A stretch of DNA of 64,000 nt from Gordius sp. MW1 (taxonomy: Eukaryota > Nematomorpha > Gordioida > Gordea > Gordiidae): positions 9,988,501 to 10,052,500 of the forward strand of contig OZ038528.1 in assembly GCA_964036665.1 (NCBI GenBank), read 5' to 3'. Below are positions 2,759 through 41,895 of this stretch, piece after piece. The first letter of the stretch is position 1; each line of letters begins with the position of its first letter. The position numbers were made by a program, and so were the translations under genes. The notes under the pieces were generated by a model, which ran no database searches, was not told the origin of the DNA, and was given only the letters and a program-made list of their open reading frames with translations.

Positions 2759-3447
2759 AAAATGGCTCTATGCGATCATGATTTCAAAGTAATAGTTTTC
2801 AGATTCTGATAAATTTTTACTTGGGATCATAGAAACCACGTCTTAAAACCACAACTTTCATCGGATGATAACGGTTCAAAGAAAAATATGTGAAAAATTT
2901 TGAGGTAAAAATATTTATTTTTTTCGATTTTATGTGAAAGAGCATGAAAAAATATATAAAAGTAAGCCAATTTGAGAATCCTATTATCCTCGATTGACTT
3001 CCGAAAAGAGGTTTTAAGTTGCGAGAACTATCATTTTGACAAAAGACAACGTTTTATTGTTGCCATTAGTTTGTTGTATCGCAACGTGAGTGCTTAATTT
3101 TTGAAAATGGCTCTATGCGATCATGATTTCAAAGTAATAGTTTACAGATTCTGATAAATTTTTACTTGGGATCATAGAAACCACGTCTTAAAACCACAAC
3201 TTTCATCGGATGATAACGGTTCAAAGAAAAATATGTGCAAAATTTTGAGGTAAAAATATTTATTTTTTTCGATTTTATGTGAAAGAGCATGAAAAAATAT
3301 ATAAAAGTAAGCCAATTTGAGAATCCTATTATCCTCGATTGACTTCCGAAAAGAGGTTTTAAGTTGCGAGAACTATCATTTTGACAAAAGACAACGTTTT
3401 ATTGTTGCCATTAGTTTTTGTATCGCAACGTGAGTGCTTAATTTTTG
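2759..3447 (+). repeat. Two consecutive near-identical A units
   Basis: The units at 2759 and 3104 share gaaaccacgtcttaaaacc, gatgataacggttcaaag, cgattttatg and gttgccattag. They differ at only a few positions, for example gtgcaaaa for gtgaaaaa near 3236 and the shortened loop of the second. This looks like a simple one-unit tandem duplication. Confidence 0.8.
2882..2952 (+). other. Phased A/T-tract block (representative unit)
   Basis: In this unit the runs aaaaa (2882-2886), aaaaatttt (2893-2901), aaaaa (2907-2911), ttttttt (2918-2924) and aaaaaa (2947-2952) are spaced at roughly one helical turn (about 11-13 bp between the first four centres). The same block recurs at unit positions 124-194 of almost every unit. 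Such phasing is known to bend DNA and is typical of many satellites. Intrinsic curvature here is inference from spacing, not measured. Confidence 0.6.
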
Positions 3448-11200: not shown

Positions 11201-13755
11201 AATATATAAAAGTAAGCCAATTTGAGAATCCTATTATCCTCGATTTACTTCCGAAAAGAGGTTTTAAGCTGCCAGAACTATTTGACAAAAGACAACGTTT
11301 TCTTGTTGCGATTAGTTAGTTGTATCGCAACGTGATGCTTAATTTTTGAAAATGGCTCTACTCGATCATGATATCAGAGTAATAGTTTACAGATTCTGAT
11401 AAATTTTTACTTGGGATCATATAAACCACGTCTTAAAACCACAACTTTCATCGGATGAATACGGTTCAAAGAAAAATATGTGAAAAATTTTGAGGTAAAA
11501 ATATTTATTTTTTTCGATTCTATGTGAAAGAGCATGAAAAAATATATAAAAGTAAGCCAATTTGAGAATCCTATTATCCTTAATTGACTTCCGAAAAGAG
11601 GTTTTAAGCTGCGAGAACTATCATTTTGACAAAAGATAACGTTTTATTGTTGCGATTAGTTTGTTGTATCGCAACGTGAGTGCTTAATTTTTGAAAATGG
11701 CTCCATGCGATAATGATTTCAAAGTAATAGTTTTCAGATTCTGATAAATTTTTACTTGGGATCATGGAAACCACGTCTGAAAACGACAACTTTCATCGGA
11801 TGCATACAATTGAAAGAAAAATATGTGAAAAATTTTTAGGTAAAAATATTTATTTTTTTCCATTCTCTGTGAAAGAGCATGAAAAAATATATAAAAGTAA
11901 GCCAATTTGAGAATCCTATTATCCTCGATTGTTTCGAAAAGAGGTTTTAAGTTGCGAGAATTATCATTTTGACAAAAGACAACGTTTTATTGTTGCGATT
12001 AGTTTGTTGTATCGCAACGTGAGTGCTTAATTTTTCAAAAATGCACTATGTGATCATGATTTTAAAGTAATAGTTTTCTGATTCTGATAAATTTTTACTT
12101 TTTATCATCGAAACCACGTCTGAAAACGATAACTTTCATCGGATGCATACGGTTGAAAGAAAAATATGTGAAAAATTTTGAGGTAAAAATATTTATTTTT
12201 TTCGATTCTATGTAAAAGAGCATGAAAAAATATATAAAATAAGCCAATTTGAGAATCCTATTATCCTCGATTTACTTCCGAAAAGAGGTTTTAAGCTGCC
12301 AGAACTATTCATTTTGACAAAAGATAACGTTTTATTGTTGCGATTAGTTTGTTGTATCGCAACGTGAGTGCTTAATTTTTCAAAAATGCACTATGCGATC
12401 ATGATTTTAAAGTAATAGTTTTCTGATTCTGATAAATTTTTACTTTTTATCATCGAAACCACGTCTAAAAACGATAACTTTCATCGGATGCATACGGTTG
12501 AAAGAAAAATATATGAAAAATTTTGAGGTAAAAATATTTATTTTTTTCGATTCTATGTGAAAGAGCATGAAAAAATATATAAAAGTAAGCCAATATGAGA
12601 ATTCTATTATCCTCGATTTACTTCCGAAAAGAGGTTTTAAGCTGCCAGAACTATTTGACAAAAGACAACGTTTTCTTGTTGCGATTAGTTTGTTGTATCG
12701 CAACGTGATGCTTAATTTTTGAAAATGGCTCTACTCGATCATGATATCAAAGTAATAGTTTACAGATTCTGATAAATTTTTACTTGGGATCATATAAACC
12801 ACGTCTTAAAACCACAACTTTCATCGGATGAATACGGTTCAAAGAAAAATATGTGAAAAATTTTGAGGTAAAAATATTTATTTTTTTCAATTCTATGTGA
12901 AAGAGCATAAAAAAATATATAAAAGTAAGTCAATTTGAGAATCCTATTATCCTCGATTGTTTCGAAAAGAGGTTTTAAGTTGCGAGAATTATCATTTTGA
13001 CAAAAGACAACGTTTTATTGTTGCGATTAGTTTGTTGTATCGCAACGTGAGTGCTTAATTTTTCAAAAATGCACTATGTGATCATGATTTTAAAGTAAAA
13101 GTTTTCTGATTCTGATAAATTTTTACTTTTTATCATCGAAACCACGTCTGAAAACGATAACTTTCATCGGATGCATACGGTTGAAAGAAAAATATGTGAA
13201 AAATTTTGAGGTAAAAATATTTATTTTTTTCGATTCTATGTAAAAGAGCATGAAAAAATATATAAAAGTAAGCCAATTTGAGAATCCTATTATCCTCGAT
13301 TTACTTCCGAAAAGAGGTTTTAAGCTGCCAGAACTATTCATTTTGACAAAAGACAACGTTTTATTGTTGCGATTAATTTGTTGTATCGCAACGTGAGTGC
13401 TTAATTTTTCAAATATGCACTATGCGATCATGATTTTAAAGTAATAGTTTTCTGATTCTGATAAATTTTTACTTTTTATCATCGAAACCACGTCTAAAAA
13501 CGATAACTTTCATCGGATGCATACGGTTGAAAGAAAAATATGTGAAAAATTTTGAGGTAAAAATATTTATTTTTTTCGATTCTATGTGAAAGAGCATGAA
13601 AAAATATATAAAAGTAAGCCAATTTGAGAATCCTATTATCCTCGATTTACTTCCGAAAAGAGGTTTTAAGCTGCCAGAACTATTTATTTTGACAAAAGAC
13701 AACGTTTTCTTGTTGCGATTAGTTTGTTGTATCGCAACGTGATGCTTAATTTTTG
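8262..13755 (+). repeat. 7-unit higher-order repeat, 2402-bp period, ~2.3 copies
   Basis: Units at 8262, 8608, 8947, 9292, 9636, 9981 and 10320 recur at 10664, 11010, 11349, 11694, 12038, 12383 and 12722, each exactly 2402 bp later, and again begin at 13066 and 13412. The order by family is B, B, A, A, B, B, A. Private markers are shared: ctctactcg heads, the tail deletion leaving ctatttgacaaaag (339-bp units at 8608, 9981, 11010 and 12383), atacaattg near 9406 and 11808, and agttagttg near 8911 and 11313. The 8262 unit is less similar to its counterparts (ctatataaaag, gtaatag), so the best-matching copies start inside it. The seven-unit block also contains an internal 1373-bp duplication of the B-B-A trio. 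Confidence 0.92.
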
Positions 13756-16700
13756 AAAATGGCTCTATGCGATCATGATATCAAAGTAATAGTTTACAGA
13801 TTCTGATAAATTTTTACTTGGGATCATAGAAACCACGTCTTAAAACCACAACTTTCATCGGATGAATACGGTTCAAAGAAAAATATGTGAAAAATTTTGA
13901 GGTAAAAATATTTATTTTTTTCAATTCTATGTGAAAGAGCATAAAAAAATATATAAAAGTTAGCCAATTTGAGAATCCTTTTATCCTCGATTGACTTCCG
14001 CGAAAAGAGGTTTGAAGTTGCGAGAACTATCATTTTGACAAAAGACAACGTTTTATTGTTGCGATAAGTTTGTTGTATCGCAACGTGAGTGCTTAATTTT
14101 TGAAAATGGCTCTATGCGATCATGATTTCAAAGTAATAGTTTTCAGATTCTGATAAATTTTTACTTGGGATCAGGGAAACCACGTCTGAAAACGACAACT
14201 TTCATCGGATGCATACGGTTGAAAGAATAATATGTGAAAAATTTTGAATTAAAAATATTTATTTTTTTCAATTCTATGTGAAAGAGCATGAAAAAATATA
14301 TAAAAGTAAGCCAATTTGAGAATCCTATTATCCTCGATTGACTTCCGAAAAGAGGTTTTAAGTTGCGAGAACTATCAGTTTGACAAAAGACAACGTTTTA
14401 TTGTTGCGATTAGTTTGTTGTATGGCAACGTGAGTGCTTAATTTTTGAAAATGGCTCCATGCGATCATGATTTCAAAGTAATAGTTTTCAGATTCTGATA
14501 AATTGTTACTTGGGATCATGGAAACCACGTCTGAAAACGACAACTTTCATCGGATGCATACGGTTAAAAGAAAAATATATGAAAAATTTTGAGGTAAAAA
14601 TGTTTATTTTTTTCCATTCTATGTGAAAGAGCATGAAAAAATATATAAAAGTAAGCCAATTTGAGAATCCTATTATCCTCGATTGACTTTCGAAAAGAGG
14701 TTTTAAGCTGCTAGAACTATCATTTTGACAAAAGACAACGTTTTATTGTCGCCATTAGTTTGTTGTATCGCAACGTGAGTGATTAAAAATGGCTCTATGC
14801 GATCATAATTTCAAAGTAATAGTTTTCAGATTCTGATAAATTTTTACTTGGGATCATAGAAACCAAGTCTGTAAACAACAACTTTCATCGGATGAATACG
14901 GTTCAAAGAAAAATATGTGAAAAATTTTGGCGTAAAATATTTATTTTTTTCCATTCTATGTGAAAGAGCATGAAAAAATATATAAAAGTAAGCCAATTTG
15001 AGAATCCTATTATCCTCGATTGACTTTCGAAAAGAGGTTTTAAGCTGCGAGAACTATCATTTTGACAAAAGACAACGTTTTATTGTTGCCATTAGTTTGT
15101 TGTATCGCAACGTGAGTGCTTAATTTTTGAAAATGGCTCTATGCGATCATGATTTCAAAGTAATAGTTTTCAGATTCTGATAAATTTTTACTTGGGATCA
15201 TAGAAACCAAGTCTGAAAACGACAACTTTCATCGGATGCATACGGTTGAAAGAAAAATATGTGAAAAATTTTGAGGTAAAAATATTTATTTTTTTCGATT
15301 CTATGTGAAAGAGCATGAAAAAATATATAAAAGTAAGCCAATTTGAGAATCCTATTATCCTCGATTTACTTCCGAAAAGAGGTTTTAAGCTGCCAGAACT
15401 ATTCATTTTGACAAAAGACAACGTTTTCTTGTTGCGATTAGTTTGTTGTATCGCAACGTGATGCTTAATTTTTGAAAATGGCTCTACTCGATCATGATAT
15501 CAAAGTAATAGTTTACAGATTCTGATAAATTTTTACTTGGGATCATATAACTCACGTCTTAAAACCACAACTTTCATCGGATGAATACGGTTCAAAGAAA
15601 AATATGTGAAAAATTTTGAGGTAAAAATATTTATTTTTTTCAATTCTATGTGAAAGAGCATAAAAAAATATATAAAAGTAAGCCAATTTGAGAATCCTAT
15701 TATCCTCGATTGACTTCCGCGAAAAGAGGTTTTAAGTTGCGAGAACTATCATTTTGACAAAAGACAACGTTTTATTGTTGCGATAAGTTTGTTGTATCGC
15801 AACGTGAGTGCTTAATTTTTGAAAATGGCTCTATGCGATCATGATTTCAAAGTAATAGTTTTCAGATTCTGATAAATTTTTACTTGGGATCATGGAAACC
15901 ACGTCTGAAAACGACAACTTTCATCGGATGCATACGGTTGAAAGAATAATATGTGAAAAATTTTGAGGTAAAAATATTTATTTTTTTTCAATTCTATGTG
16001 AAAGAGCATGAAAAAATATATAAAAGTAAGCCAATTTGAAAATCCTATTATCCTCGATTGACTTCCGAAAAGAGGTTTTAAGTTGCGAGAACTATCATTT
16101 TGACAAAAGACAACGTTTTATTGTTGCGATTAGTTTGTTGTATCGCAACGTGAGTGCTTAATTTTTGAAAATGGCTCCATGCGATCATGATTTCAAAGTA
16201 ATAGTTTTCAGATTCTGATAAATTTTTACTTGGGATCATGGAAACCACGTCTGAAAACGACAACTTTCATCGGATGCATACGGTTAAAAGAAAAACATGT
16301 GAAAAATTTTGAGGTAAAAATATTTATTTTTTTCCATTCTATGTGAAAGAGCATGAAAAAATATATAAAAGTAAGCCAATTTGAGAATCCTATTATCCTC
16401 GATTGACTTTCGAAAAGAGGTTTTAAGCTGCTAGAACTATCATTTTGACAAAAGACAACGTTTTATTGTCGCCATTAGTTTGTTGTATCTCAACGTGAGT
16501 GATTAAAAATGGCTCTATGCGATCATAATTTCAAAGTAATAGTTTTCAGATTCTGATAAATTTTTACTTGGGATCATAGAAACCAAGTCTGAAAACAACA
16601 ACTTTCATCGGATGAATACGGTTGAAAGAAAAATATGTGAAAAATTTTGAGGTAAAAATATTTATTTTTTTCGATTCTATGTGAAAGAGCATGAAAAAAT

Positions 16701-19252
16701 ATATAAAAGTAAGCCAATTTGAGAATCCTATTATCCTCGATTTACTTCCGAAAAGAGGTTTTAAGCTGCCAGAACTATTCATTTTGACAAAAGACAACGT
16801 TTTCTTGTTGCGATTAGTTTGTTGTATCGCAACGTGATGCTTAATTTTTGAAAATGGCTCTATGCGATCATGATATCAAAGTAATAGTTTACAGATTCTG
16901 ATAAATTTTTACTTGGGATCATAGAAACCACGTCTTAAAACCACAACTTTCATCGGATGAATACGGTTCAAAGAAAAATATGTGAAAAATTTTGAGGTAA
17001 AAATATTTATTTTTTTCAATTCTATGTGAAAGAGCATAAAAAAATATATAAAAGTTAGCCAATTTGAGAATCCTATTATCCTCGATTGACTTCCGCGAAA
17101 AGAGGTTTGAAGTTGCGAGAACTATCATTTTGACAAAAGACAACGTTTTATTGTTGCGATAAGTGTGTTGTATCGCAACGTGAGTGCTTAATTTTTGAAA
17201 ATGGCTCTATGCGATCATGATTTCAAAGTAATAGTTTTCAGATTCTGATAAATTTTTACTTGGGATCATGGAAACCACGTCTGAAAACGACAACTTTCAT
17301 CGGATGCATACGGTTGAAAGAATAATATGTGAAAAATTTTGAATTAAAAATATTTATTTTTTTCAATTCTATGTGAAAGAGCATGAAAAAATATATAAAA
17401 GTAAGCCAATTTGAGAATCCTATTATCCTCGATTGACTTCCGAAAAGAGGTTTTAAGTTGCGAGAACTATCAGTTTGACAAAAGACAACGTTTTATTGTT
17501 GCGATTAGTTTGTTGTATGGCAACGTGAGTGCTTAATTTTTGAAAATGGCTCCATGCGATCATGATTTCAAAGTAATAGTTTTCAGATTCTGATAAATTG
17601 TTACTTGGGATCATGGAAACCACGTCTGAAAACGACAACTTTCATCGGATGCATACGGTTAAAAGAAAAATATATGAAAAATTTTGAGGTAAAAATGTTT
17701 ATTTTTTTCCATTCTATGTGAAAGAGCATGAAAAAATATATAAAAGTAAGCCAATTTGAGAATCCTATTATCCTCGATTGACTTTCGAAAAGAGGTTTTA
17801 AGCTGCTAGAACTATCATTTTGACAAAAGACAACGTTTTATTGTCGCCATTAGTTTGTTGTATCGCAACGTGAGTGATTAAAAATGGCTCTATGCGATCA
17901 TAATTTCAAAGTAATAGTTTTCAGATTCTGATAAATTTTTACTTGGGATCATAGAAACCAAGTCTGAAAACAACAACTTTCATCGGATGAATACGGTTCA
18001 AAGAAAAATATGTGAAAAATTTTGAGGTAAAAATATTTATTTTTTTCCATTCTATGTGAAAGAGCATGAAAAAATATATAAAAGTAAGCCAATTTGAGAA
18101 TCCTATTATCCTCGATTGACTTTCGAAAAGAGGTTTTAAGCTGCGAGAACTATCATTTTGACAAAAGACAACGTTTTATTGTTGCCATTAGTTTGTTGTA
18201 TCGCAACGTGAGTGCTTAATTTTTGAAAATGGCTCTATGCGATCATGATTTCAAAGTAATAGTTTTCAGATTCTGATAAATTTTTACTTGGGATCATAGA
18301 AACCAAGTCTGAAAACGTCAACTTTCATCGGATGCATACGGTTGAAAGAAAATATGTGAAAAATTTTGAGGTAAAAATATTTATTTTTTTCGATTCTATG
18401 TGAAAGAGCATGAAAAAATATATAAAAGTAAGCCAATTTGAGAATCCTATTATCCTCGATTTACTTCCGAAAAGAGGTTTTAAGCTGCCAGAACTTTCAT
18501 TTTGACAAAAGACAACGTTTTCTTGTTGCGATTAGTTTGTTGTATCGCAACGTGATGCTTAATTTTTGAAAATGGCTCTACTCGATCATGATATCAAAGT
18601 AATAGTTTACAGATTCTGATAAATTTTTACTTGGGATCATATAAACCACGTCTTAAAACCACAACTTTCATCGGATGAATACGGTTCAAAGAAAAATATG
18701 TGAAAAATTTTGAGGTAAAAATATTTTTTTTTTCAATTCTATGTGAAAGAGCATAAAAAAATATATAAAAGTAAGCCAATTTGAGAATCCTATTATCCTC
18801 GATTGACTTCCGCGAAAAGAGGTTTTAAGTTGCGAGAACTATCATTTTGACAAAAGACAACGTTTTATTGTTGCGATAAGTTTGTTGTATCGCAACGTGA
18901 GTGCTTAATTTTTGAAAATGGCTCTATGTGATCATGATTTCAAAGTAATAGTTTTCAGATTCTGATAAATTTTTACTTGGGATCATGAAAACCACGTCTG
19001 AAAACGACAACTTTCATCGGATGCATACGGTTGAAAGAATAATATGTGAAAAATTTTGAGGTAAAAATATTTATTTTTTTCAATTCTATGTGAAAGAGCA
19101 TGAAAAAATATATAAAAGTAAGCCAATTTGAGAATCCTATTATCCTCGATTGACTTTCGAAAAGAGGTTTTAAGCTGCTAGAACTATCATTTTGACAAAA
19201 GATAACGTTTTATTGTCGCCATTAGTTTGTTGTATCTCAACGTGAGTGATTA
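13756..19252 (+). repeat. Nested 9-unit higher-order repeat, 3095-bp period, ~1.8 copies
   Basis: Units at 13756, 14103, 14448, 14786, 15130, 15475, 15822, 16168 and 16506 recur from 16851 (17198, 17543, 17881, 18226, 18569, 18915) at offsets of 3093-3096 bp. Shared markers include agttagcc near 13959 and 17054, tttgaatt near 14243 and 17338, atcagtttg, gtatggcaac, and the 338-bp units ending gtgagtgattaaaaatgg. Within the block, the units at 13756-14786 are themselves related to those at 15475-16506 at about 1720 bp, so it is a 5+4 nested duplication. No family B unit occurs in this stretch. Confidence 0.88.
14448..14785 (+). repeat. Representative 338-bp deletion sub-lineage unit
   Basis: This unit ends gtgagtgattaaaaatgg, lacking about seven bases of the usual gtgagtgcttaatttttg end. 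The same junction closes the units at 16168, 17543, 18915, 20287 and 25446, six in all, confined to 14-26 kb. It is a clean lineage tag for tracing the 9-, 4- and 15-unit amplifications. Confidence 0.88.
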
Positions 19253-21658
19253 AAAATGGCTCTATGCGATCATAATTTCAAAGTAATAGTTTTCAGATTC
19301 TGATAAATTTTTACTTGGGATCATAGAAACAAAGTCTGAAAACAACAACTTTCATCGGATGAATACGGTTCAAAGAAAAATATGTGAAAAATTTTGAGGT
19401 AAAAATATTTATTTTTTTCGATTCTATGTGAAAGAGCATGAAAAAATATATAAAAGTAAGCCAATTTGAGAATCCTATTATCCTCGATTTACTTCCGAAA
19501 AGAGGTTTTAAGCTGCCAGAACTATTCATTTTGACAAAAGACAACGTTTTCTTGTTGCGATTAGTTTGTTGTATCGCAACGTGATGCTTAATTTTTGAAA
19601 ATGGCTCTACTCGATCATGATATCAAAGTAATAGTTTACAGATTCTGATAAATTTTTACTTGGGATCATATAAACCACGTCTTAAAACCACAACTTTCAT
19701 CGGATGAATACGGTTCAAAGAAAAATATGTGAAAAATTTTGAGGTAAAAATATTTATTTTTTTCAATTCTATGTGAAAGAGCATAAAAAAATATATAAAA
19801 GTAAGCCAATTTGAGAATCCTATTATCCTCGATTGACTTCCGAAAAGAGGTTTTAAGCTGCGAGAACTATCATTTTGACAAAAGACAACGTTTTATTGTT
19901 GCGATTAGTTTGTTGTATCGCAACGTGATGCTTAATTTTTGAAAATGGCTCTATGCGATCATGATATCAAAGTAACAGTTTACAGATTCTAATAAATTTT
20001 TACTTGGGATCATAGAAACGTCGTCTTAAAACCACAACTTTCATCGGATCAATACGGTTCAAAGAAAAATATGTGAAAAATTTTGAGGTAAAAATATTTA
20101 TTTTTTTCAATTCTATGTGAAAGAGCATAAAATAATATATAAAAGTAAGCCAATTTGAGAATCCTATTATCCTCGATTGACTTCCGAAAAGAGGTTTTAA
20201 GCTGCGAGAACTATCATTTTGACAAAAGACAACGTTTTATTGTTGCGATAAGTTTGTTGTATCGCAACGTGAGTGCTTAATTTTTGAAAATGGCTCTATG
20301 TGATCATGATTTCAAAGTAATAGTTTTCAGATTCTGATAAATTTTTACTTGGGATCATGAAAACCACGTCTGAAAACGACAACTTTCATCGGATGCATAC
20401 GGTTGAAAGAATAATATGTGAAAAATTTTGAGGTAAAAATATTTATTTTTTTCAATTCTATGTGAAAGAGCATGAAAAAATATATAAAAGTAAGCCAATT
20501 TGAGAATCCTATTATCCTCGATTGACTTTCGAAAAGAGGTTTTAAGCTGCTAGAACTATCATTTTGACAAAAGATAACGTTTTATTGTCGCCATTAGTTT
20601 GTTGTATCTCAACGTGAGTGATTAAAAATGGCTCTATGCGATCATAATTTCAAAGTAATAGTTTTCAGATTCTGATAAATTTTTACTTGGGATCATAGAA
20701 ACAAAGTCTGAAAACAACAACTTTCATCGGATGAATACGGTTCAAAGAAAAATATGTGAAAAATTTTGAGGTAAAAATATTTATTTTTTTCGATTCTATG
20801 TGAAAGAGCATGAAAAAATATATAAAAGTAAGCCAATTTGAGAATCCTATTATCCTCGATTTACTTCCGAAAAGAGGTTTTAAGCTGCCAGAACTATTCA
20901 TTTTGACAAAAGACAACGTTTTCTTGTTGCGATTAGTTTGTTGTATCGCAACGTGATGCTTAATTTTTGAAAATGGCTCTACTCGATCATGATATCAAAG
21001 TAATAGTTTACAGATTCTGATAAATTTTTACTTGGGATCATATAAACCACGTCTTAAAACCACAACTTTCATCGGATGAATACGGTTCAAAGAAAAATAT
21101 GTGAAAAATTTTGAGGTAAAAATATTTATTTTTTTCAATTCTATGTGAAAGAGCATAAAAAAATATATAAAAGTAAGCCAATTTGAGAATCCTATTATCC
21201 TCGATTGACTTCCGAAAAGAGGTTTTAAGCTGCGAGAACTATCATTTTGACAAAAGACAACGTTTTATTGTTGCGATTAGTTTGTTGTATCGCAACGTGA
21301 TGCTTAATTTTTGAAAATGGCTCTATGCGATCATGATATCAAAGTAACAGTTTACAGATTCTAATAAATTTTTACTTGGGATCATAGAAACGTCGTCTTA
21401 AAACCACAACTTTCATCGGATCAATACGGTTCAAAGAAAAATATGTGAAAAATTTTGAGGTAAAAATATTTATTTTTTTCAATTCTATGTGAAAGAGCAT
21501 AAAATAATATATAAAAGTAAGCCAATTTGAGAATCCTATTATCCTCGATTGACTTCCGAAAAGAGGTTTTAAGCTGCGAGAACTATCATTTTGACAAAAG
21601 ACAACGTTTTATTGTTGCGATTAGTTTGTTGTATCGCAACGTGAGTGCTTAATTTTTG
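18915..21658 (+). repeat. 4-unit higher-order repeat, 1372-bp period, two copies
   Basis: Units at 18915, 19253, 19598 and 19942 repeat at 20287, 20625, 20970 and 21314 with an exact 1372-bp offset. Shared markers include ctctatgtgatc, catgaaaacc, gaaacaaagtctg, gtatctcaacg, ctctactcg, and the cgtcgtc/gatcaatac unit. A third copy lies at 25446-26817, carried there by the larger 15-unit duplication. The two tandem copies look nearly identical by eye. Confidence 0.92.
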
Positions 21659-24600
21659 AAAATGGCTCTATGCGATCATGATTTCAAAGTAATTGTTTTC
21701 AGATTCTGATAAATTTTTACTTGGGATCATGGAAACTACGTCTGAAAACGACAACTTTCATCGGATGCATACGGTTGAAAGAAAAATATGTGAAAAATTT
21801 TGAGGTAAAAATATTTATTTTTTTCCATTCTATGTGAAAGAGCATGAAAAAATATTTAAAAGTAAGCCAATTTGAGAAGCCTATTATCCTCGATTGACTT
21901 CGGAAAAGAGGTTTTAAGCTGCGAGAACTATCTTTTTGACAAAAGACAACGTTTTATTGTTGCGATTAGTTTGTTGTATCGCAACGTGATGCTTAATTTT
22001 TGAAAATGGCTCTATGCGATCATGATTTCAAAGTAATAGTTTACAGATTCTGATAAATTTTTACTTTGGATCATAGAAACCACGTCTTAAAACCACAACT
22101 TTCATCGGATGAATACGGTTCAAAGAAAAATATGTGAAAAATTTTGAGGTAAAAATATTTATTTGTTTCGATTCTATGTGAAAGAGCATGAAAAAATATA
22201 TAAAAGTAAGCCAATTTGAGAATCCTATTATCCTCGATTTACTTCCGAAAAGAGGTTTTAAGCTGCCAGAACTATTCATTTTGACAAAAGACAACGTTTT
22301 CTTGTTGCGATTAGTTTGTTGTATCGCAACGTGATGCTTAATTTTTGAAAATGGCTCTACTCGATCATGATATCAAAGTAATAGTTTACAGATTCTGATA
22401 AATTTTTACTTGGGATCATATAAACCACGTCTTAAAACCACAACTTTCATCGGATGAATACGGTTCAAAGAAAAATATGTGAAAAATTTTGAGGTAAAAA
22501 TATTTATTTTTTTCAATTCTATGTGAAAGAGCATAAAAAAATATATAAAAGTAAGCCAATTTGAGAATCCTATTATCCTCGATTGACTTCCGAAAAGAGG
22601 TTTTAAGCTGCGAGAACTATCATTTTGACAAAAGACAACGTTTTATTGTTGCGATTAGTTTGTTGTATCGCAACTTGAGTGCTTAATTTTTGAAAATGGC
22701 TCTATGCGATGATGATTTCAAAGTAATAGTTTTCAGATTCTGATAAATTTTTACTTGGGATCATGGAAACCACGTCTGAAAACCACAACTTTCATCGGAT
22801 GCATACGGTTGAAAGAATAATTGGTGAAAAATTTTGAGGTAAAAATATTTATTTTTTCCATTCTATGTGAAAGAGCATGAAAAAATATATAAAAGTAAGC
22901 CAATTTGAGAATCCTATTATCCTCGATTGACTTTCAAAAAGAGGTTTTAAGCTGCGAGAACTATCATTTTGACAAAAGACAACGTTTTATTGTTGCGATT
23001 AGTTTGTTGTATCGCAACGTGATGCTTAATTTTTGAAAATGGCTCTATGCGATCATGATATCAAAGTAACAGTTTACAGATTCTGATAAATTTTTACTTG
23101 GGATCATAGAAACCACGTCTTAAAACCACAACTTTCATCGGATGCATACGGTTGAAATAAAAATATGTGAAAAATTTTGAGGTAAAAATATTTATTTTTT
23201 TCCATTCTATGTGAAATAGCATGAAAAAATATATAAAAGTAAGCCAATTTGAGAAGCCTATTATCCTCGATTGACTTCGGAAAAGAGGTTTTAAGCTGCG
23301 AGAACTATCTTTTTGACAAAAGACAACGTTTTATTGTTGCGATTAGTTTGTTGTATCGCAACGTGATGCTTAATTTTTAAAAATGGCTCTATGCGATCAT
23401 GATTTCAAAGTAATAGTTTACAGATTCTGATAAATTTTTACTTGGGATCATAGAAACCACGTCTTAAAACCACAACTTTCATTGGATGCATACGGTTGAA
23501 ATAAAAATATGTGAAAAATTTTGAGGTAAAAATATTTATTTTTTTCCATTCTATGTGAAAGAGCATGAAAAAATATATAAAAGTAAGCCAATTTGAGAAT
23601 CCTATTATCCTCGATTGACTTTCAAAAAGAGGTTTTAAGCTGCGAGAACTATCATTTTGACAAAAGACAACGTTTTATTGTTGCGATTAGTTTGTTGTAT
23701 CGCAACGTGATGCTTAATTTTTGAAAATGGCTCTATGCGATCATGATATCAAAGTAACAGTTTACAGATTCTGATAAATTTTTACATGGGATCATAGAAA
23801 CGTCGTCTTAAAACCACAACTTTCATCGGATCAATACGGTTCAAAGAAAAATATGTGAAAAATTTTGAGGTAAAAATATTTATTTTTTTCAATTCTATGT
23901 GAAAGAGCATAAAATAATATATAAAAGTAAGCCAATTTGAGAATCCTATTATCCTCGATTGACTTCCGAAAAGAGGTTTTAAGCTGCGAGAACTATCATT
24001 TTGACAAAAGACAACGTTTTATTGTTGCGATTAGTTTGTTGTATCGCAACGTGAGTGCTTAATTTTTGAAAATGGCTCTATGCGATCATGATTTCAAAGT
24101 AATAGTTTTCAGATTCTGATAAATTTTTACTTGGGATCATGGAAACCACGTCTGAAAACGACAACTTTCATCGGATGCATACGGTTGAAAGAAAAATATG
24201 TGAAAAATTTTGAGGTAAAAATATTTATTTTTTTCCATTCTATGTGAAAGAGCATGAAAAAATATTTAAAAGTAAGCCAATTTGAGAAGCCTATTATCCT
24301 CGATTGACTTCGGAAAAGAGGTTTTAAGCTGCGAGAACTATCTTTTTGACAAAAGACAACGTTTTATTGTTGCGATTAGTTTGTTGTATCGCAACGTGAT
24401 GCTTAATTTTTGAAAATGGCTCTATGCGATCATGATTTCAAAGTAATAGTTTACAGATTCTGATAAATTTTTACTTTGGATCATAGAAACCACGTCTTAA
24501 AACCACAACTTTCATCGGATGAATACGGTTCAAAGAAAAATATGTGAAAAATTTTGAGGTAAAAATATTTATTTGTTTCGATTCTATGTGAAAGAGCATG

Positions 24601-25100
24601 AAAAAATATATAAAAGTAAGCCAATTTGAGAATCCTATTATCCTCGATTGACTTCCGAAAAGAGGTTTTAAGCTGCGAGAACTATCATTTTGACAAAAGA
24701 CAACGTTTTATTGATGCGATTAGTTTGTTGTATCGCAACGTGAGTGCTTAATTTTTCAAAAATGCACTATGCGATCATGATTTTAAAGTAATAGTTTTCT
24801 CATTCTGAAAAATTTTTACTTTTTATCATCGAAACCACGTCTGAAAACGACAACTTTCATCGGATGCATACGGTTGAAAGAAAAATATGTGAAAATTTTG
24901 AGGCTAAAATATTTATTTTTTTCGATTCTATGTGAAAGAGCATGAAAAAATATATAAAAGTAAGCCAATTTGAGAATCCTATTATCCTCGATTGACTTCC
25001 GAAAAGAGGTTTTAAGCTGCGAGAACTATCATTTTGACAAAAGACAACGTTTTATTGTTGCGATTAGTTTGTTGTATCGCAACGTGATGCTTAATTTTTG
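19942..25100 (+). repeat. 15-unit higher-order repeat, copy 1 (5159 bp)
   Basis: Units start at 19942, 20287, 20625, 20970, 21314, 21659, 22003, 22348, 22693, 23036, 23380, 23724, 24069, 24413 and 24759 (the only family B unit). Every start recurs exactly 5159 bp later. Markers include gtaattgtttt and gaaactacg (21659), tactttggatc and atttgtttcg (22003), gcgatgatg and ataattggtg (22693), gaaatagcatg (23036), catttggatg-type cattggatg (23380), tacatggg (23724) and aggctaaaat (24759). Homology extends leftward into the previous unit to roughly 19800. Confidence 0.95.
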
Positions 25101-28100
25101 AAAATGGCTCTATGCGATCATGATATCAAAGTAACAGTTTACAGATTCTAATAAATTTTTACTTGGGATCATAGAAACGTCGTCTTAAAACCACAACTTT
25201 CATCGGATCAATACGGTTCAAAGAAAAATATGTGAAAAATTTTGAGGTAAAAATATTTATTTTTTTCAATTCTATGTGAAAGAGCATAAAATAATATATA
25301 AAAGTAAGCCAATTTGAGAATCCTATTATCCTCGATTGACTTCCGAAAAGAGGTTTTAAGCTGCGAGAACTATCATTTTGACAAAAGACAACGTTTTATT
25401 GTTGCGATAAGTTTGTTGTATCGCAACGTGAGTGCTTAATTTTTGAAAATGGCTCTATGTGATCATGATTTCAAAGTAATAGTTTTCAGATTCTGATAAA
25501 TTTTTACTTGGGATCATGAAAACCACGTCTGAAAACGACAACTTTCATCGGATGCATACGGTTGAAAGAATAATATGTGAAAAATTTTGAGGTAAAAATA
25601 TTTATTTTTTTCAATTCTATGTGAAAGAGCATGAAAAAATATATAAAAGTAAGCCAATTTGAGAATCCTATTATCCTCGATTGACTTTCGAAAAGAGGTT
25701 TTAAGCTGCTAGAACTATCATTTTGACAAAAGATAACGTTTTATTGTCGCCATTAGTTTGTTGTATCTCAACGTGAGTGATTAAAAATGGCTCTATGCGA
25801 TCATAATTTCAAAGTAATAGTTTTCAGATTCTGATAAATTTTTACTTGGGATCATAGAAACAAAGTCTGAAAACAACAACTTTCATCGGATGAATACGGT
25901 TCAAAGAAAAATATGTGAAAAATTTTGAGGTAAAAATATTTATTTTTTTCGATTCTATGTGAAAGAGCATGAAAAAATATATAAAAGTAAGCCAATTTGA
26001 GAATCCTATTATCCTCGATTTACTTCCGAAAAGAGGTTTTAAGCTGCCAGAACTATTCATTTTGACAAAAGACAACGTTTTCTTGTTGCGATTAGTTTGT
26101 TGTATCGCAACGTGATGCTTAATTTTTGAAAATGGCTCTACTCGATCATGATATCAAAGTAATAGTTTACAGATTCTGATAAATTTTTACTTGGGATCAT
26201 ATAAACCACGTCTTAAAACCACAACTTTCATCGGATGAATACGGTTCAAAGAAAAATATGTGAAAAATTTTGAGGTAAAAATATTTATTTTTTTCAATTC
26301 TATGTGAAAGAGCATAAAAAAATATATAAAAGTAAGCCAATTTGAGAATCCTATTATCCTCGATTGACTTCCGAAAAGAGGTTTTAAGCTGCGAGAACTA
26401 TCATTTTGACAAAAGACAACGTTTTATTGTTGCGATTAGTTTGTTGTATCGCAACGTGATGCTTAATTTTTGAAAATGGCTCTATGCGATCATGATATCA
26501 AAGTAACAGTTTACAGATTCTAATAAATTTTTACTTGGGATCATAGAAACGTCGTCTTAAAACCACAACTTTCATCGGATCAATACGGTTCAAAGAAAAA
26601 TATGTGAAAAATTTTGAGGTAAAAATATTTATTTTTTTCAATTCTATGTGAAAGAGCATAAAATAATATATAAAAGTAAGCCAATTTGAGAATCCTATTA
26701 TCCTCGATTGACTTCCGAAAAGAGGTTTTAAGCTGCGAGAACTATCATTTTGACAAAAGACAACGTTTTATTGTTGCGATTAGTTTGTTGTATCGCAACG
26801 TGAGTGCTTAATTTTTGAAAATGGCTCTATGCGATCATGATTTCAAAGTAATTGTTTTCAGATTCTGATAAATTTTTACTTGGGATCATGGAAACTACGT
26901 CTGAAAACGACAACTTTCATCGGATGCATACGGTTGAAAGAAAAATATGTGAAAAATTTTGAGGTAAAAATATTTATTTTTTTCCATTCTATGTGAAAGA
27001 GCATGAAAAAATATTTAAAAGTAAGCCAATTTGAGAAGCCTATTATCCTCGATTGACTTCGGAAAAGAGGTTTTAAGCTGCGAGAACTATCTTTTTGACA
27101 AAAGACAACGTTTTATTGTTGCGATTAGTTTGTTGTATCGCAACGTGATGCTTAATTTTTGAAAATGGCTCTATGCGATCATGATTTCAAAGTAATAGTT
27201 TACAGATTCTGATAAATTTTTACTTTGGATCATAGAAACCACGTCTTAAAACCACAACTTTCATCGGATGAATACGGTTCAAAGAAAAATATGTGAAAAA
27301 TTTTGAGGTAAAAATATTTATTTGTTTCGATTCTATGTGAAAGAGCATGAAAAAATATATAAAAGTAAGCCAATTTGAGAATCCTATTATCCTCGATTTA
27401 CTTCCGAAAAGAGGTTTTAAGCTGCCAGAACTATTCATTTTGACAAAAGACAACGTTTTCTTGTTGCGATTAGTTTGTTGTATCGCAACGTGATGCTTAA
27501 TTTTTGAAAATGGCTCTACTCGATCATGATATCAAAGTAATAGTTTACAGATTCTGATAAATTTTTACTTGGGATCATATAAACCACGTCTTAAAACCAC
27601 AACTTTCATCGGATGAATACGGTTCAAAGAAAAATATGTGAAAAATTTTGAGGTAAAAATATTTATTTTTTTCAATTCTATGTGAAAGAGCATAAAAAAA
27701 TATATAAAAGTAAGCCAATTTGAGAATCCTATTATCCTCGATTGACTTCCGAAAAGAGGTTTTAAGCTGCGAGAACTATCATTTTGACAAAAGACAACGT
27801 TTTATTGTTGCGATTAGTTTGTTGTATCGCAACTTGAGTGCTTAATTTTTGAAAATGGCTCTATGCGATGATGATTTCAAAGTAATAGTTTTCAGATTCT
27901 GATAAATTTTTACTTGGGATCATGGAAACCACGTCTGAAAACCACAACTTTCATCGGATGCATACGGTTGAAAGAATAATTGGTGAAAAATTTTGAGGTA
28001 AAAATATTTATTTTTTCCATTCTATGTGAAAGAGCATGAAAAAATATATAAAAGTAAGCCAATTTGAGAATCCTATTATCCTCGATTGACTTTCAAAAAG

Positions 28101-30260
28101 AGGTTTTAAGCTGCGAGAACTATCATTTTGACAAAAGACAACGTTTTATTGTTGCGATTAGTTTGTTGTATCGCAACGTGATGCTTAATTTTTGAAAATG
28201 GCTCTATGCGATCATGATATCAAAGTAACAGTTTACAGATTCTGATAAATTTTTACTTGGGATCATAGAAACCACGTCTTAAAACCACAACTTTCATCGG
28301 ATGCATACGGTTGAAATAAAAATATGTGAAAAATTTTGAGGTAAAAATATTTATTTTTTTCCATTCTATGTGAAATAGCATGAAAAAATATATAAAAGTA
28401 AGCCAATTTGAGAAGCCTATTATCCTCGATTGACTTCGGAAAAGAGGTTTTAAGCTGCGAGAACTATCTTTTTGACAAAAGACAACGTTTTATTGTTGCG
28501 ATTAGTTTGTTGTATCGCAACGTGATGCTTAATTTTTAAAAATGGCTCTATGCGATCATGATTTCAAAGTAATAGTTTACAGATTCTGATAAATTTTTAC
28601 TTGGGATCATAGAAACCACGTCTTAAAACCACAACTTTCATTGGATGCATACGGTTGAAATAAAAATATGTGAAAAATTTTGAGGTAAAAATATTTATTT
28701 TTTTCCATTCTATGTGAAAGAGCATGAAAAAATATATAAAAGTAAGCCAATTTGAGAATCCTATTATCCTCGATTGACTTTCAAAAAGAGGTTTTAAGCT
28801 GCGAGAACTATCATTTTGACAAAAGACAACGTTTTATTGTTGCGATTAGTTTGTTGTATCGCAACGTGATGCTTAATTTTTGAAAATGGCTCTATGCGAT
28901 CATGATATCAAAGTAACAGTTTACAGATTCTGATAAATTTTTACATGGGATCATAGAAACGTCGTCTTAAAACCACAACTTTCATCGGATCAATACGGTT
29001 CAAAGAAAAATATGTGAAAAATTTTGAGGTAAAAATATTTATTTTTTTCAATTCTATGTGAAAGAGCATAAAATAATATATAAAAGTAAGCCAATTTGAG
29101 AATCCTATTATCCTCGATTGACTTCCGAAAAGAGGTTTTAAGCTGCGAGAACTATCATTTTGACAAAAGACAACGTTTTATTGTTGCGATTAGTTTGTTG
29201 TATCGCAACGTGAGTGCTTAATTTTTGAAAATGGCTCTATGCGATCATGATTTCAAAGTAATAGTTTTCAGATTCTGATAAATTTTTACTTGGGATCATG
29301 GAAACCACGTCTGAAAACGACAACTTTCATCGGATGCATACGGTTGAAAGAAAAATATGTGAAAAATTTTGAGGTAAAAATATTTATTTTTTTCCATTCT
29401 ATGTGAAAGAGCATGAAAAAATATTTAAAAGTAAGCCAATTTGAGAAGCCTATTATCCTCGATTGACTTCGGAAAAGAGGTTTTAAGCTGCGAGAACTAT
29501 CTTTTTGACAAAAGACAACGTTTTATTGTTGCGATTAGTTTGTTGTATCGCAACGTGATGCTTAATTTTTGAAAATGGCTCTATGCGATCATGATTTCAA
29601 AGTAATAGTTTACAGATTCTGATAAATTTTTACTTTGGATCATAGAAACCACGTCTTAAAACCACAACTTTCATCGGATGAATACGGTTCAAAGAAAAAT
29701 ATGTGAAAAATTTTGAGGTAAAAATATTTATTTGTTTCGATTCTATGTGAAAGAGCATGAAAAAATATATAAAAGTAAGCCAATTTGAAAATCCTATTAT
29801 CCTCGATTGACTTCCGAAAAGAGGTTTTAAGCTGCGAGAACTATCATTTTGACAAAAGACAACGTTTTATTGATGCGATTAGTTTGTTGTATCGCAACGT
29901 GAGTGCTTAATTTTTCAAAAATGCACTATGCGATCATGATTTTAAAGTAATAGTTTTCTCATTCTGAAAAATTTTTACTTTTTATCATCGAAACCACGTC
30001 TGAAAACGACAACTTTCATCGGATGCATACGGTTGAAAGAAAAATATGTGAAAATTTTGAGGCTAAAATATTTATTTTTTTCGATTCTATGTGAAAGAGC
30101 ATGAAAAAATATATAAAAGTAAGCCAATTTGAGAATCCTATTATCCTCGATTGACTTCCGAAAAGAGGTTTTAAGCTGCGAGAACTATCATTTTGACAAA
30201 AGACAACGTTTTATTGTTGCGATTAGTTTGTTGTATCGCAACGTGAGTGCTTAATTTTTG
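25101..30260 (+). repeat. 15-unit higher-order repeat, copy 2
   Basis: Units start at 25101, 25446, 25784, 26129, 26473, 26818, 27162, 27507, 27852, 28195, 28539, 28883, 29228, 29572 and 29918 (B). The only internal difference I noticed from copy 1 is tttgaaaatcc at about 29785-29795 (A at 29789, G at 24630). At the right end the copies part at gtgagtgc here versus gtgatgc in copy 1. Such identity over about 5 kb implies a very recent duplication, or an assembly artefact that should be excluded. Confidence 0.95.
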
Positions 30261-31641
30261 AAAATGGCTCTATGCGATCATGATTTCAAAGTAATAGTTT
30301 TCAGATTCTGATAAATTTTTACTTGGGATCATGGAAACCACGTCTGAAAACGACAACTTTCATCGGATGCATACGGTTGAAAGAAAAATATGTGAAAAAT
30401 TTTGAGGTAAAAATATTTATTTTTTTCCATTCTATGTGAAAGAGCATGAAAAATTATATAAAAGTAAGCCAATTTGAGAATCCTATTATCCTCGATTGAC
30501 TTTCGAAAAGAGGTTTTAAGCTGCGAGAACTATCATTTTGACAAAAGACAACGTTTTATTGTTGCCATTAGTTTGTTGTATCGCAACGTGAGTGCTTAAT
30601 TTTTGAAAATGGCTCTATGCGATCATGATTTCAAAGTAATAGTTTTCAGATTCTGATAAATTTTTACTTGGGATCATAGAAACCAAGTCTGAAAACGACA
30701 ACTTTCATCGGATGCATACGGTTGAAAGAAAAATATGTGAAAAATTTTGAGGTAAAAATATTTATTTTTTTCGATTCTATGTGAAAGAGCATGAAAAAAA
30801 TATAAAAGTAAGCCAATTTGAGAATCCTATTATCCTCGATTTACTTCCGAAAAGAGGTTTTAAGCTGCCAGAACTATTCATTTTGACAAAAGACAACGTT
30901 TTCTTGTTGCGATTAGTTTGTTGTATCGCAACGTGATGCTTAATTTTTGAAAATGGCTCTACTCGATCATGATATCAAAGTAATAGTTTACAGATTCTGA
31001 TAAATTTTTACTTGGGATCATATAAACCACGTCTTAAAACCACAACTTTCATCGGATGAATACGGTTCAAAGAAAAATATGTGAAAAATTTTGAGGTAAA
31101 AATATTTATTTTTTTCAATTCTATGTGAAAGAGCATAAAAAAATATATAAAAGTAAGCCAATTTGAGAATCCTATTATCCTCGATTGACTTCCGCGAAAA
31201 GAGGTTTTAAGTTGCGAGAACTATCATTTTGACAAAAGACAACGTTTTATTGTTGCGATAAGTTTGTTGTATCGCAACGTGAGTGCTTAATTTTTCAAAA
31301 ATGCACTATGCGATCATGATTTTAAAGTAATAGTTTTCTGATTCTGATAAATTTTTACTTTTTATCATCGAAACCACGTCTAAAAACGACAACTTTAATC
31401 GGATGCATACGGTTGAAAGAAAAATATGTGAAAAATTTTTAGGTAAAAATATTTATTTTTTTCGATTCTATGTGAAAGAGCATGAAAAAATATATAAAAG
31501 TAAGCCAATTTGAGAATCCTATTATCCTCGATTGACTTCCGAAAAGAGGTTTTAAGCTGCGAGAACTATCATTTTGACAAAAGACAACGTTTTATTGTTT
31601 CGATTAGTTTGTTGTATCGCAACGTGAGTGCTTAATTTTTG
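30261..31641 (+). repeat. Four units, junction between higher-order blocks
   Basis: Units start at 30261, 30606, 30950 and 31298 (B). The 30606-31297 pair carries the marker set of the 15130-15821 pair about 15 kb upstream: aaccaagtctg, ccagaactattcat, ctctactcg, catataaacc, cttccgcgaaaag and gttgcgataag. This shows a two-unit segment shared between distant blocks. The 30950 unit is 348 bp, with the extra cg in ccgcgaaaag. Confidence 0.8.
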
Positions 31642-34390
31642 AAAATGGCTCTATGCGATGATGATTTCAAAGTAATAGTTTTCAGATTCTGATAAATTTT
31701 TACTTGGGATCATGGAAACCACGTCTGAAAACCACAACTTTCATCGGATGCATACGGTTGAAAGAATAATTGGTGAAAAATTTTGAGGTAAAAATATTTA
31801 TTTTTTCCATTCTATGTGAAAGAGCATGAAAAAATATATAAAAGTAAGCCAATTTGAGAATCCTATTATCCTCGATTGACTTTCAAAAAGAGGTTTTAAG
31901 CTGCGAGAACTATCATTTTGACAAAAGACAACGTTTTATTGTTGCGATTAGTTTGTTGTATCGCAACGTGATGCTTAATTTTTGAAAATGGCTCTATGCG
32001 ATCATGATATCAAAGTAACAGTTTACAGATTCTGATAAATTTTTACTTGGGATCATAGAAACCACGTCTTAAAACCACAACTTTTATCGGATGCATACGG
32101 TTGAAATAAAAATATGTGAAAAATTTTGAGGTAAAAATATTTATTTTTTTTGATTCTATGTGAAAGAGCATGAAAAAATATATAAAAGTAAGCCAATTTG
32201 AGAATCCTATTATCCTCGATTGACTTCCGAAAAGAGGTTTTAAGCTGCGAGAACTATCATTTTGACAAAAGACAACGTTTTATTGTTGCGATTAGTTTGT
32301 TGTATCGCAACGTGAGTGCTTAATTTTTCAAAAATGCACTATGCGATCATGATTTTAAAGTAATAGTTTTCTGATTCTGATAAATTTTTACTTTTTATCA
32401 TCGAAACCACGTCTGAAAACGACAACTTTCATCGGATGCATACGGTTGAAAGAAAAATATGTGAAAATTTTGAGGTAAAAATATTATTTTTTTCGATTCT
32501 ATGTGAAAGAGCATGAAAAAATATATATAAGTAATCCAATTTGAGAATCCTATTATCCTCGATTTACTTCCGAAAAGAGGTTTTAAGCTGCGAGAACTAT
32601 CATTTTGACAAAAGACAATGTTTTATTGTTGCGATTAGTTTGTTGTATCGCAACGTGATGCTTAATTTTTGAAAATGGCTCTATGCGATCATGATTTCAA
32701 AGTAATAGTTTACAGATTCTGATAAATTTTTACTTGGGATCATAGAAACGTCGTCTTAAAACCACAACTTTCATCGGATCAATACGGTTCAAAGAAAAAT
32801 ATGTGAAAAATTTTGAGGTAAAAATATTTATTTTTTTCAATTCTATGTGAAAGAGCATAAAAAAATATATAAAAGTAAGCCAATTTGAGAATCCTATTAT
32901 CCTCGATTGACTTCCGAAAAGAGGTTTTAAGCTGCGAGAACTATCATTTTGACAAAAGACAACGTTTTATTGTTGCGATTAGTTTGTTGTATCGCAACGT
33001 GAGTGCTTAATTTTTGAAAATGGCTCTATGCGATGATGATTTCAAAGTAATAGTTTTCAGATTCTGATAAATTTTTACTTGGGATCATGGAAACCACGTC
33101 TGAAAACCACAACTTTCATCGGATGCATACGGTTGAAAGAATAATTGGTGAAAAATTTTGAGGTAAAAATATTTATTTTTTCCATTCTATGTGAAAGAGC
33201 ATGAAAAAATATATAAAAGTAAGCCAATTTGAGAATCCTATTATCCTCGATTGACTTTCAAAAAGAGGTTTTAAGCTGCGAGAACTATCATTTTGACAAA
33301 AGACAACGTTTTATTGTTGCGATTAGTTTGTTGTATCGCAACGTGATGCTTAATTTTTGAAAATGGCTCTATGCGATCATGATTTCAAAGTAATAGTTTA
33401 CAGATTCTGATAAATTTTTACTTGGGATCATAGAAACCACGTCTTAAAACACAACTTTCATCGGATGATAACGGTTCAAAGAAAAATATGTGAAAAATTT
33501 TGAGGTAAAAATATTTATTTTTTTCGATTCTATGTGAAAGAGCATGAAAAAATATATAAAAGTAAGCCAATTTGAGAATCCTATTATCCTCGATTGACTT
33601 CCGAAAAGAGGTTTTAAGCTGCGAGAACTATCATTTTGACAAAAGACAACGTTTTATTGTTGCGATTAGTTTGTTGTATCGCAACGTGAGTGCTTAATTT
33701 TTCAAAAATGCACTATGCGATCATGATTTTAAAGTAATAGTTTTCTGATTCTGATAAATTTTTACTTTTTATCATCGAAACCACGTCTGAAAACGACAAC
33801 TTTCATCGGATGCATACGGTTGAAAGAAAAATATGTGAAAATTTTGAGGTAAAAATATTATTTTTTTCGATTCTATGTGAAAGAGCATGAAAAAATATAT
33901 ATAAGTAATCCAATTTGAGAATCCTATTATCCTCGATTTACTTCCGAAAAGAGGTTTTAAGCTGCGAGAACTATCATTTTGACAAAAGACAATGTTTTAT
34001 TGTTGCGATTAGTTTGTTGTATCGCAACGTGATGCTTAATTTTTGAAAATGGCTCTATGCGATCATGATTTCAAAGTAATAGTTTACAGATTCTGATAAA
34101 TTTTTACTTGGGATCATAGAAACGTCGTCTTAAAACCACAACTTTCATCGGATCAATACGGTTCAAAGAAAAATATGTGAAAAATTTTGAGTTAAAAATA
34201 TTTATTTTTTTCAATTCTATGTGAAAGAGCATAAAAAAATATATAAAAGTAAGCCAATTTGAGAATCCTATTATCCTCGATTGACTTCCGAAAAGAGGTT
34301 TTAAGCTGCGAGAACTATCATTTTGACAAAAGACAACGTTTTATTGTTGCGATTAGTTTGTTGTATCGCAACGTGAGTGCTTAATTTTTG
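31642..34390 (+). repeat. 4-unit higher-order repeat, ~1375-bp period, two copies
   Basis: Units at 31642, 31985, 32331 and 32672 recur at 33017, 33360, 33705 and 34046 (offset 1374-1375). The first unit (gcgatgatg, ataattggtg, gactttcaaaaag) is the lineage of the 22693 and 27852 units. The third is a short 341-bp B unit with tatatataagtaatcc. The second unit is poorly matched between copies (gcatacggttgaaat at 31985 versus gataacggttcaaag at 33360), indicating replacement of one unit after duplication. Confidence 0.85.
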
Positions 34391-35768
34391 AAAATGGCTC
34401 TATGCGATCATGATTTCAAAGTAATAGTTTTCAGATTCTGATAAATTTTTACTTGGGATCATGGAAACCACGTCTGAAAACGACAACTTTCATCGGATGC
34501 ATACGGTTGAAAGAAAAATATGTGAAAAATTTTGAGGTAAAAATATTTATTTTTTTCCATTCTATGTGAAAGAGCATGAAAAAATATTTAAAAGTAAGCC
34601 AATTTGAGAAGCCTATTATCCTCGATTGACTTCGGAAAAGAGGTTTTAAGCTGCGAGAACTATCTTTTTGACAAAAGACAACGTTTTATTGTTGCGATTA
34701 GTTTGTTGTATCGCAACGTGATGCTTAATTTTTGAAAATGGCTCTATGCGATCATGATTTCAAAGTAATAGTTTACAGATTCTGATAAATTTTTACTTTG
34801 GATCATAGAAACCAAGTCTTAAAACCACAACTTTCATCGGATGAATACGGTTCAAAGAAAAATATGTGAAAAATTTTGAGGTAAAAATATTTATTTGTTT
34901 CGATTCTATGTGAAAGAGCATGAAAAAATATATAAAAGTAAGCCAATTTGAGAATCCTATTATCCTCGATTGACTTCCGAAAAGAGGTTTTAAGCTGCGA
35001 GAACTATCATTTTGACAAAAGACAACGTTTTATTGATGCGATTAGTTTGTTGTATCGCAACGTGAGTGCTTAATTTTTCAAAAATGCACTATGCGATCAT
35101 GATTTTAAAGTAATAGTTTTCTCATTCTGAAAAATTTTTACTTTTTATCATCGAAACCACGTCTGAAAACGACAACTTTCATCGGATGCATACGGTTGAA
35201 AGAAAAATATGTAAAAATTTTGAGGTAAAAATATTTATTTTTTTCGATTCTATGTGAAAGAGCATGAAAAAATATATAAAAGTAAGCCAATTTGAGAATC
35301 CTATTATCCTCGATTGACTTCCGAAAAGAGGTTTTAAGCTGCGAGAACTATCATTTTGACAAAAGACAACGTTTTATTGTTGCGATTAGTTTGTTGTATC
35401 GCAACGTGAGTGCTTAATTTTTGAAAATGGCTCTATGCGATCATGATTTCAAAGTAATAGTTTTCAGATTCTGATAAATTTTTACTTGGGATCATGGAAA
35501 CCACGTCTGAAAACGACAACTTTCATCGGATGCATACGGTTGAAAGAAAAATATGTGAAAAATTTTGAGGTAAAAATATTTATTTTTTTCCATTCTATGT
35601 GAAAGAGCATGAAAAATTATATAAAAGTAAGCCAATTTGAGAATCCTATTATCCTCGATTGACTTTCGAAAAGAGGTTTTAAGCTGCGAGAACTATCATT
35701 TTGACAAAAGACAACGTTTTATTGTTGCCATTAGTTTGTTGTATCGCAACGTGAGTGCTTAATTTTTG
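34391..35768 (+). repeat. Partial third copy of the 15-unit block
   Basis: Units at 34391, 34735, 35081 (B) and 35424 match those at 29228, 29572, 29918 and 30261 with a constant 5163-bp offset, in the same order. Shared rare features include gagaagcctattatcc, cttcggaaaag, tactttggatc, atttgtttcg and ttttctcattctgaaaaa. Differences include aaccaagtctt near 34811 and gtaaaaattttgagg near 35211, so it has diverged more than the two full copies from each other. Confidence 0.88.
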
Positions 35769-38700: not shown

Positions 38701-38819
38701 TATCCTCGATTGACTTCCGAAAAGAGGTTTTAAGCTGCGAGAACTATCATTTTGACAAAAGACAACGTTTTATTGTTGCGATTAGTTTGTTGTATCGCAA
38801 CGTGAGTGCTTAATTTTTG
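35424..38819 (+). repeat. 10-unit higher-order repeat, copy 1 (3396 bp)
   Basis: Units start at 35424, 35769, 36113, 36458, 36802, 37146, 37492 (B), 37835, 38180 and 38500. Each of 35424-38180 has its counterpart exactly 3396 bp later. Markers include ctctattcgatcataattt, gaatgcggttcaaaaaaa, gttaccattag, gcgataatg, atgggaaaat, atatttcttttt, gggttcatag, aaaaacattta and tgaacatgg. The copy ends with two successive 320-bp deletion units, whereas copy 2 has only one. Confidence 0.93.
38180..38819 (+). repeat. Two adjacent 320-bp units with a 25-bp internal deletion
   Basis: The units at 38180 and 38500 both read gtcttaaaggttcaaag, lacking the 25 bases from accacaactttcatcgg through the following gataac-type segment. 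The 38180 unit also has acttcatattg in place of acgttttattg; the 38500 unit does not. A third such unit lies at 41576-41895. One deletion event followed by a single-unit duplication in copy 1 (or a single-unit loss in copy 2) explains the pattern. Confidence 0.92.
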
Positions 38820-41800: not shown

Positions 41801-41895
41801 AGGTTTTAAGCTGCGAGAACTATCATTTTGACAAAAGACAACTTCATATTGTTGCGATTAGTTTGTTGTATCGCAACGTGAGTGCTTAATTTTTG
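38820..41895 (+). repeat. 10-unit higher-order repeat, copy 2 (nine units)
   Basis: Units start at 38820, 39165, 39509, 39854, 40198, 40542, 40888 (B), 41231 and 41576. The differences from copy 1 I noticed are few: ctatgtgaaag near 39342 versus ctatgtaaaag, aaaaataagtg near 40321 versus aaaaatacgtg, and tcaaagtaat near 40568 versus tcaaattaat. The 320-bp unit at 41576 is followed directly by a normal 344-bp unit at 41896, so the last deletion unit of copy 1 is missing. Confidence 0.93.

Follow-up and report, generated by a model that had tools for sequence, protein, structure and literature searches.

An apparently recent tandem duplication of 15 satellite units, with a hybrid unit at its junction, in Gordius sp. 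MW1

Results

The window lies within a large satellite array

The window, by which we mean the whole 64-kb stretch of DNA analyzed here (C2:9988501-10052500 in the 211.8-Mb, 12-contig assembly of Gordius sp. MW1), is occupied from end to end by a single 345-bp tandem satellite, hereafter family A (TRF: period 345, 186.3 copies, 93% matches, 1-64000). Across 264 kb of C2, family A anchors were found 762 times in forward and 0 times in reverse orientation, and only one anchor spacing exceeded 700 bp, an interval of 1495 bp at C2:9892042-9893537. The insert at this interval starts with TGT, ends with ACA, has GGATC on both sides and contains an internal direct repeat (by eye); it is presumably LTR-like. 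Array-wide statistics refer to 274 kb (C2:9788501-10062500, window included), and the array continues past the left end of this region. On the right, family A ends at C2:10062094, abutting a 393-bp element (C2:10062095-10062487) which has 18-bp inverted ends (TAGAGATGCACCGATACC) and which we take to be hAT-like. The element sits between family A on the plus strand and, on the opposite strand, a second satellite family whose units are of similar length and ~66% identical to family A. The two 8-bp flanks of the element differ (read by eye), which would follow if the junction had arisen via recombination between two copies.

To estimate abundance, an exact 35-mer from the unit was counted across the assembly, giving 31,413 occurrences (12,465 forward and 18,948 reverse, with 0 for the reversed control). 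Since this 35-mer is carried by 35% of the units in the 274 kb, family A would by rough extrapolation total ~89,000 units, or 31 Mb and 14% of the assembly. At 28 points on C1-C4 (chosen near hits, one only on C1), family A was present at 16, its 66% relative at 8 and neither at 4. The relative occupied 6/6 sampled C2 points between 10.075 and 10.5 Mb, in addition to its position directly right of the array, and was also seen at a single point on each of C1 and C3. As for the contig ends, C1-C3 begin with CCCTAA repeats, while the start of C4 (1-1500) has a short tandem repeat around CCGTTGTCCGT in place of CCCTAA telomere repeats; C12 (14,798 bp) carries mitochondrial COX1.

An internal dimer (2 x 172 bp) in the 345-bp unit was considered and rejected, the half-versus-half score being 71 against a mean of 72.9 (sd 6.8) in 60 shuffles. 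Four ORFs of at least 60 aa (table 11) overlap 19700-30300, all of 77 aa, on the minus strand and at repeated positions; we read them as chance products of the repeat, and by this search no coding role was found for the block described below. The features on which the analysis rests are as follows (window positions, units numbered along the window).

1..64000, plus strand: 345-bp satellite array, family A, in one orientation throughout (TRF and anchors)
8437..13375, plus strand: recent tandem duplication of 7 units (offset 2402, 0 mismatches in 2537 bp)
18831..21621, plus strand: nested 4-unit duplication straddling the left edge of the 15-unit block (18831-20249 = 20203-21621, offset 1372)
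19786..19941, plus strand: last 156 bp of unit 58, identical to the last 156 bp of hybrid unit 73 at 24945-25100 (offset-5159 self-comparison)
19942..25100, plus strand: copy 1, units 59-73, 15 units and 5159 bp (offset-5159 self-comparison, unit starts)
24759..25100, plus strand: hybrid junction unit 73, 342 bp (alignment of units 58, 73 and 88)
24945..25087, plus strand: interval with the putative exchange point, 143 bp identical in units 58, 73 and 88 (unit alignment)
25101..30260, plus strand: copy 2, units 74-88 (offset-5159 self-comparison, unit starts)
29075..30618, plus strand: partial, diverged echo of the 15-unit spacing (= 34238-35781, offset 5163, 5 mismatches in 1544 bp)
29789, plus strand: sole substitution between the copies, A here and G at 24630 (offset-5159 self-comparison)
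30247, plus strand: 1-bp indel (GTGATGC / GTGAGTGC) relative to 25088, where the copies lose register (offset-5159 self-comparison)
35223..41929, plus strand: recent tandem duplication of 10 units (offset 3396, 3 mismatches in 3311 bp)

Two nearly identical copies of a 15-unit block

A sequence-only reading of the window had described two almost identical tandem copies of a 5159-bp, 15-unit block starting at 19942, and had proposed self-alignment at offset 5159 as a check. Its 15 unit starts do recur at exactly this distance (19942...24759 -> 25101...29918), and the self-alignment of 19786-25087 with 24945-30246 gave one substitution in 5302 columns, in two exact runs of 4844 bp and 457 bp split by 24630 G / 29789 A. 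The observation is thus confirmed as real in the assembly, the duplication being read from the assembled sequence. Two details needed amendment: the substitution at 29789 is indeed the only one, but a further 1-bp indel (25088/30247) had been missed, and the unit starts hold while the match itself reaches 156 bp farther upstream, to 19786. At its other end the match at offset 5159 is stopped by the indel, beyond which phase is lost, and the unit following copy 2 starts at 30261, one base past the offset-5159 prediction. Between the copies, 13 of the 15 unit pairs are identical, one carries the substitution and the pair 73/88 carries the 1-bp indel. The A state of 29789 was found in 8 of 670 such contexts in the 274 kb (29789 itself counted), and this rarity makes A the likely derived state.

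Units within one copy differ from each other by 1-34 positions, with a mean of 18.1 (105 pairs; gap columns counted). On average, then, divergence among the units of the block is greater than that between the copies, as had been proposed, but near-twins exist, such as units 59 and 63, which differ by 1. Similarly, the private variants said to be preserved in order apply to part of the block only, as 68.4% of its 100-mers are also present in other parts of the 274 kb. The expectation that identity should exceed that of random units was borne out: we compared each of the 184 units of the window with the unit lying a fixed lag farther on and scored uninterrupted runs in which no pair showed more than 1 difference. 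The longest such run was 15, versus 1 (155 times) or 2 (45 times) when unit order was shuffled 200 times.

The junction unit and a proposed exchange

Unit 73, at the junction of the two copies, is a hybrid. In its columns 1-188, all 26 informative columns (two being gaps) match unit 88, and past column 188 the single informative column (332) matches unit 58 (1/1). The right half of this mosaic consists of one indel column together with the identity of unit 74, which follows the hybrid, to unit 59, which follows unit 58. As units 58, 73 and 88 agree across 24945-25087, the exchange is placed within these 143 bp. The duplicated length is a whole number of units (15) and the junction unit is of normal length (342 bp). 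Two copies, an in-register junction and a hybrid unit can thus be read directly from the assembled letters, and they bear out the earlier description of a very recent tandem duplication.

We favor the interpretation that homology-directed unequal exchange produced, in a single recent event, the tandem duplication of a 15-unit segment, and assign it a probability of roughly 0.72. Under this model the ancestral unit order would have been ...58, 59-72, 73', 89..., and unit 73' of one chromatid would have aligned in register with unit 58 on its partner. An exchange inside the 143-bp tract identical in 73' and 58 would then have yielded 59-72, hybrid 73, 74-87, 88, 89. The partners were most likely misaligned sister chromatids, and the event was presumably a crossover rather than a copying event (break-induced replication), with the proviso that exchange, break-induced replication and long slippage leave an identical end product.

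We also considered whether identity at such junctions is longer than chance would provide. The 143 bp of this junction were reached by 9.9% of random nonzero in-phase tracts. Among nine junction tracts (19-242 bp; the tenth clean event, 162 bp, lay outside the comparison), five were reached by 35-60% and four by 6-11% of random in-phase tracts, and longer-than-chance identity was not supported, with none of the nine below 5.9% under a null that retained duplicated pairs. The midpoints of the exchange intervals fell at unit columns 177-344 in 9 of the 10 clean events and at column 56 of the next unit in the remaining one. This distribution is weakly suggestive of a clustering of exchange points at one unit phase, a pattern seen post hoc and in columns (177-344) that are mostly well conserved.

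Age and order of events

The 4-unit duplication across the left edge of the block has 0 mismatches in 1419 bp at offset 1372. Units 56-58, 60-62 and 75-77 are identical, and 59/63 and 74/78 differ by one. The units of the 4-unit duplication are contained in both 15-unit copies. This suggests that the 4-unit event is the older one, preceding the 15-unit event, and that the change at 29789 came later. Between the copies, pairwise divergence amounts to 1.9e-4 per site, with a 95% Poisson interval from 4.8e-6 to 1.05e-3. With an assumed rate of 1e-9 per site per generation, the point estimate of age would be ~94,000 generations (2,400-525,000), and with an assumed 5e-9 it would be ~19,000 generations (480-105,000). 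Gene conversion would make the duplication look younger.

Other tandem blocks in the satellite

Searching the 274 kb for tandem blocks (offset at least 600 bp, with no less than 85% of it matched), we found 24, some of which are copies of each other and so not independent. They span 2 to ~18 units, with an offset that changes along the array. Each is below 0.5% divergence, and the 24 together account for 36.5% of the 274 kb; within the window their share is 38.1%. As one of 24 comparable blocks, the 15-unit block is unexceptional. The junction monomer is 320-346 bp long in 24/24 blocks, as in-register exchange, unlike random end-joining, would predict; the hybrid-unit analysis itself concerned the 15-unit block. 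Three short 320-bp units, two of them adjacent, were observed at 38180-38819 and 41576-41895 of the window, and two of the three are identical partners in the 10-unit duplication.

Three of the C2 blocks exceed 5 kb (offsets 5859, 6090 and 5159, with one mismatch each). A 20-kb sample of C1 (C1:11650001-11670000), sited where an array was already known rather than at random, held a 17-unit near-tandem duplication with 4806 bp exact at offset 5820; this match is 83% of the offset, just below the cut-off used for C2, and continues at 5832 after a 12-bp shift. Only 2.3% of the 100-mers of this C1 sample occur in the 274 kb of C2, which indicates that the arrays differ between the two contigs. The near-identical blocks longer than 4.8 kb, three of them on C2 and the fourth on C1, have offsets of 5.16, 5.82, 5.86 and 6.09 kb, or 15-18 units. 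A preferred size of the largest recent duplications, reflecting an exchange or re-copying length characteristic of this heterochromatin, nonetheless seems very unlikely to us, given that there are four events, that the C1 sample was non-random and that there is also a 13-unit offset at which 3294 bp, or 74% of the offset, are identical.

Alternative explanations

The same range of offsets (5159-6090 bp among near-identical blocks above 4.8 kb, none longer) could reflect a read-length ceiling, and would then fit an assembly artefact in which 5.16 kb was inserted twice or two alleles were joined in tandem. We regard this as unlikely, because the copies are separated by a substitution with a rare A state (8/670), which is not what a plain repeat of the same letters would give, and because the block falls within a size series of 2 to ~18 units whose smaller members have the same in-register anatomy. 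Rolling-circle amplification of an excised 15-unit circle, reinserted beside its source, would by reasoning yield the same two in-register copies. Such amplification is usually expected to yield several copies, and here there are only 2.03, with two steps needed where one suffices; we consider it very unlikely.

The sequence-only reading had spoken of an amplified higher-order repeat, and this label is too strong for the 15-unit block. The repeated segment does consist of several diverged monomers, as the differences among its units indicate, but a series of many near-identical copies sharing one period is not what the array contains: there are 2.03 copies plus one partial, diverged echo, and offsets vary across the 274 kb. 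A true higher-order repeat of 15-unit period, either nascent or in decay and formerly present in more copies, could account for the 1544-bp echo at offset 5163, with its 5 mismatches, and for the lag-15 pairs 82/97, 86/101 and 89/104 with 0 differences and 85/100, 87/102 and 88/103 with 5, 2 and 3. However, units 74-81 differ from units 89-96 by 8-25, lag-15 pairs lying between or next to these (83/98, 84/99 and 90/105) differ by 16, 24 and 14, the longest blocks in the 274 kb include no third copy of comparable length, and tandem blocks elsewhere in the array have other offsets. We therefore consider a true higher-order repeat to be quite unlikely, and retain a single, recent unequal exchange as the preferred reading.

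Discussion

Turnover of satellite DNA by unequal crossing-over is a picture reportedly due to Smith in 1976. The array resembles it in its in-register multi-unit duplications, in the hybrid unit at the junction and in neighbouring blocks of differing ages; we found no substantive difference, with one event narrowed here to an interval of 143 bp. The block fits the known picture of satellite turnover as something ordinary rather than special, and neutral satellite turnover is its likeliest reading. Excerpts of PMC9549924 and PMC8099727 treat unequal-crossover satellite turnover, citing Smith 1976. As described in those excerpts, human alpha-satellite higher-order repeats are alike in that identity between blocks is far above identity between monomers, and unlike in that here there are two copies, with a block size that varies by place, and a monomer of 345 bp rather than 171.

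The large satellite stretches inside C1-C4 suggest that family A may be a (peri)centromeric satellite. A search with the CENP-B box motif gave no exact match and 5 matches with one mismatch, versus 5.47 expected by shuffling, and a CENP-B-like box was rejected with counts at chance level. To our knowledge, a CENP-B box is not needed in all animals.

By itself, the 15-unit duplication overturns nothing. It offers a base-resolved example of satellite turnover, in which one sequence yields an individual event, the interval where exchange took place, the timing of that event relative to a second one and a near-zero divergence. With more than one third of the 274 kb in recent tandem blocks, this array could serve to measure the event-size spectrum of satellite turnover.
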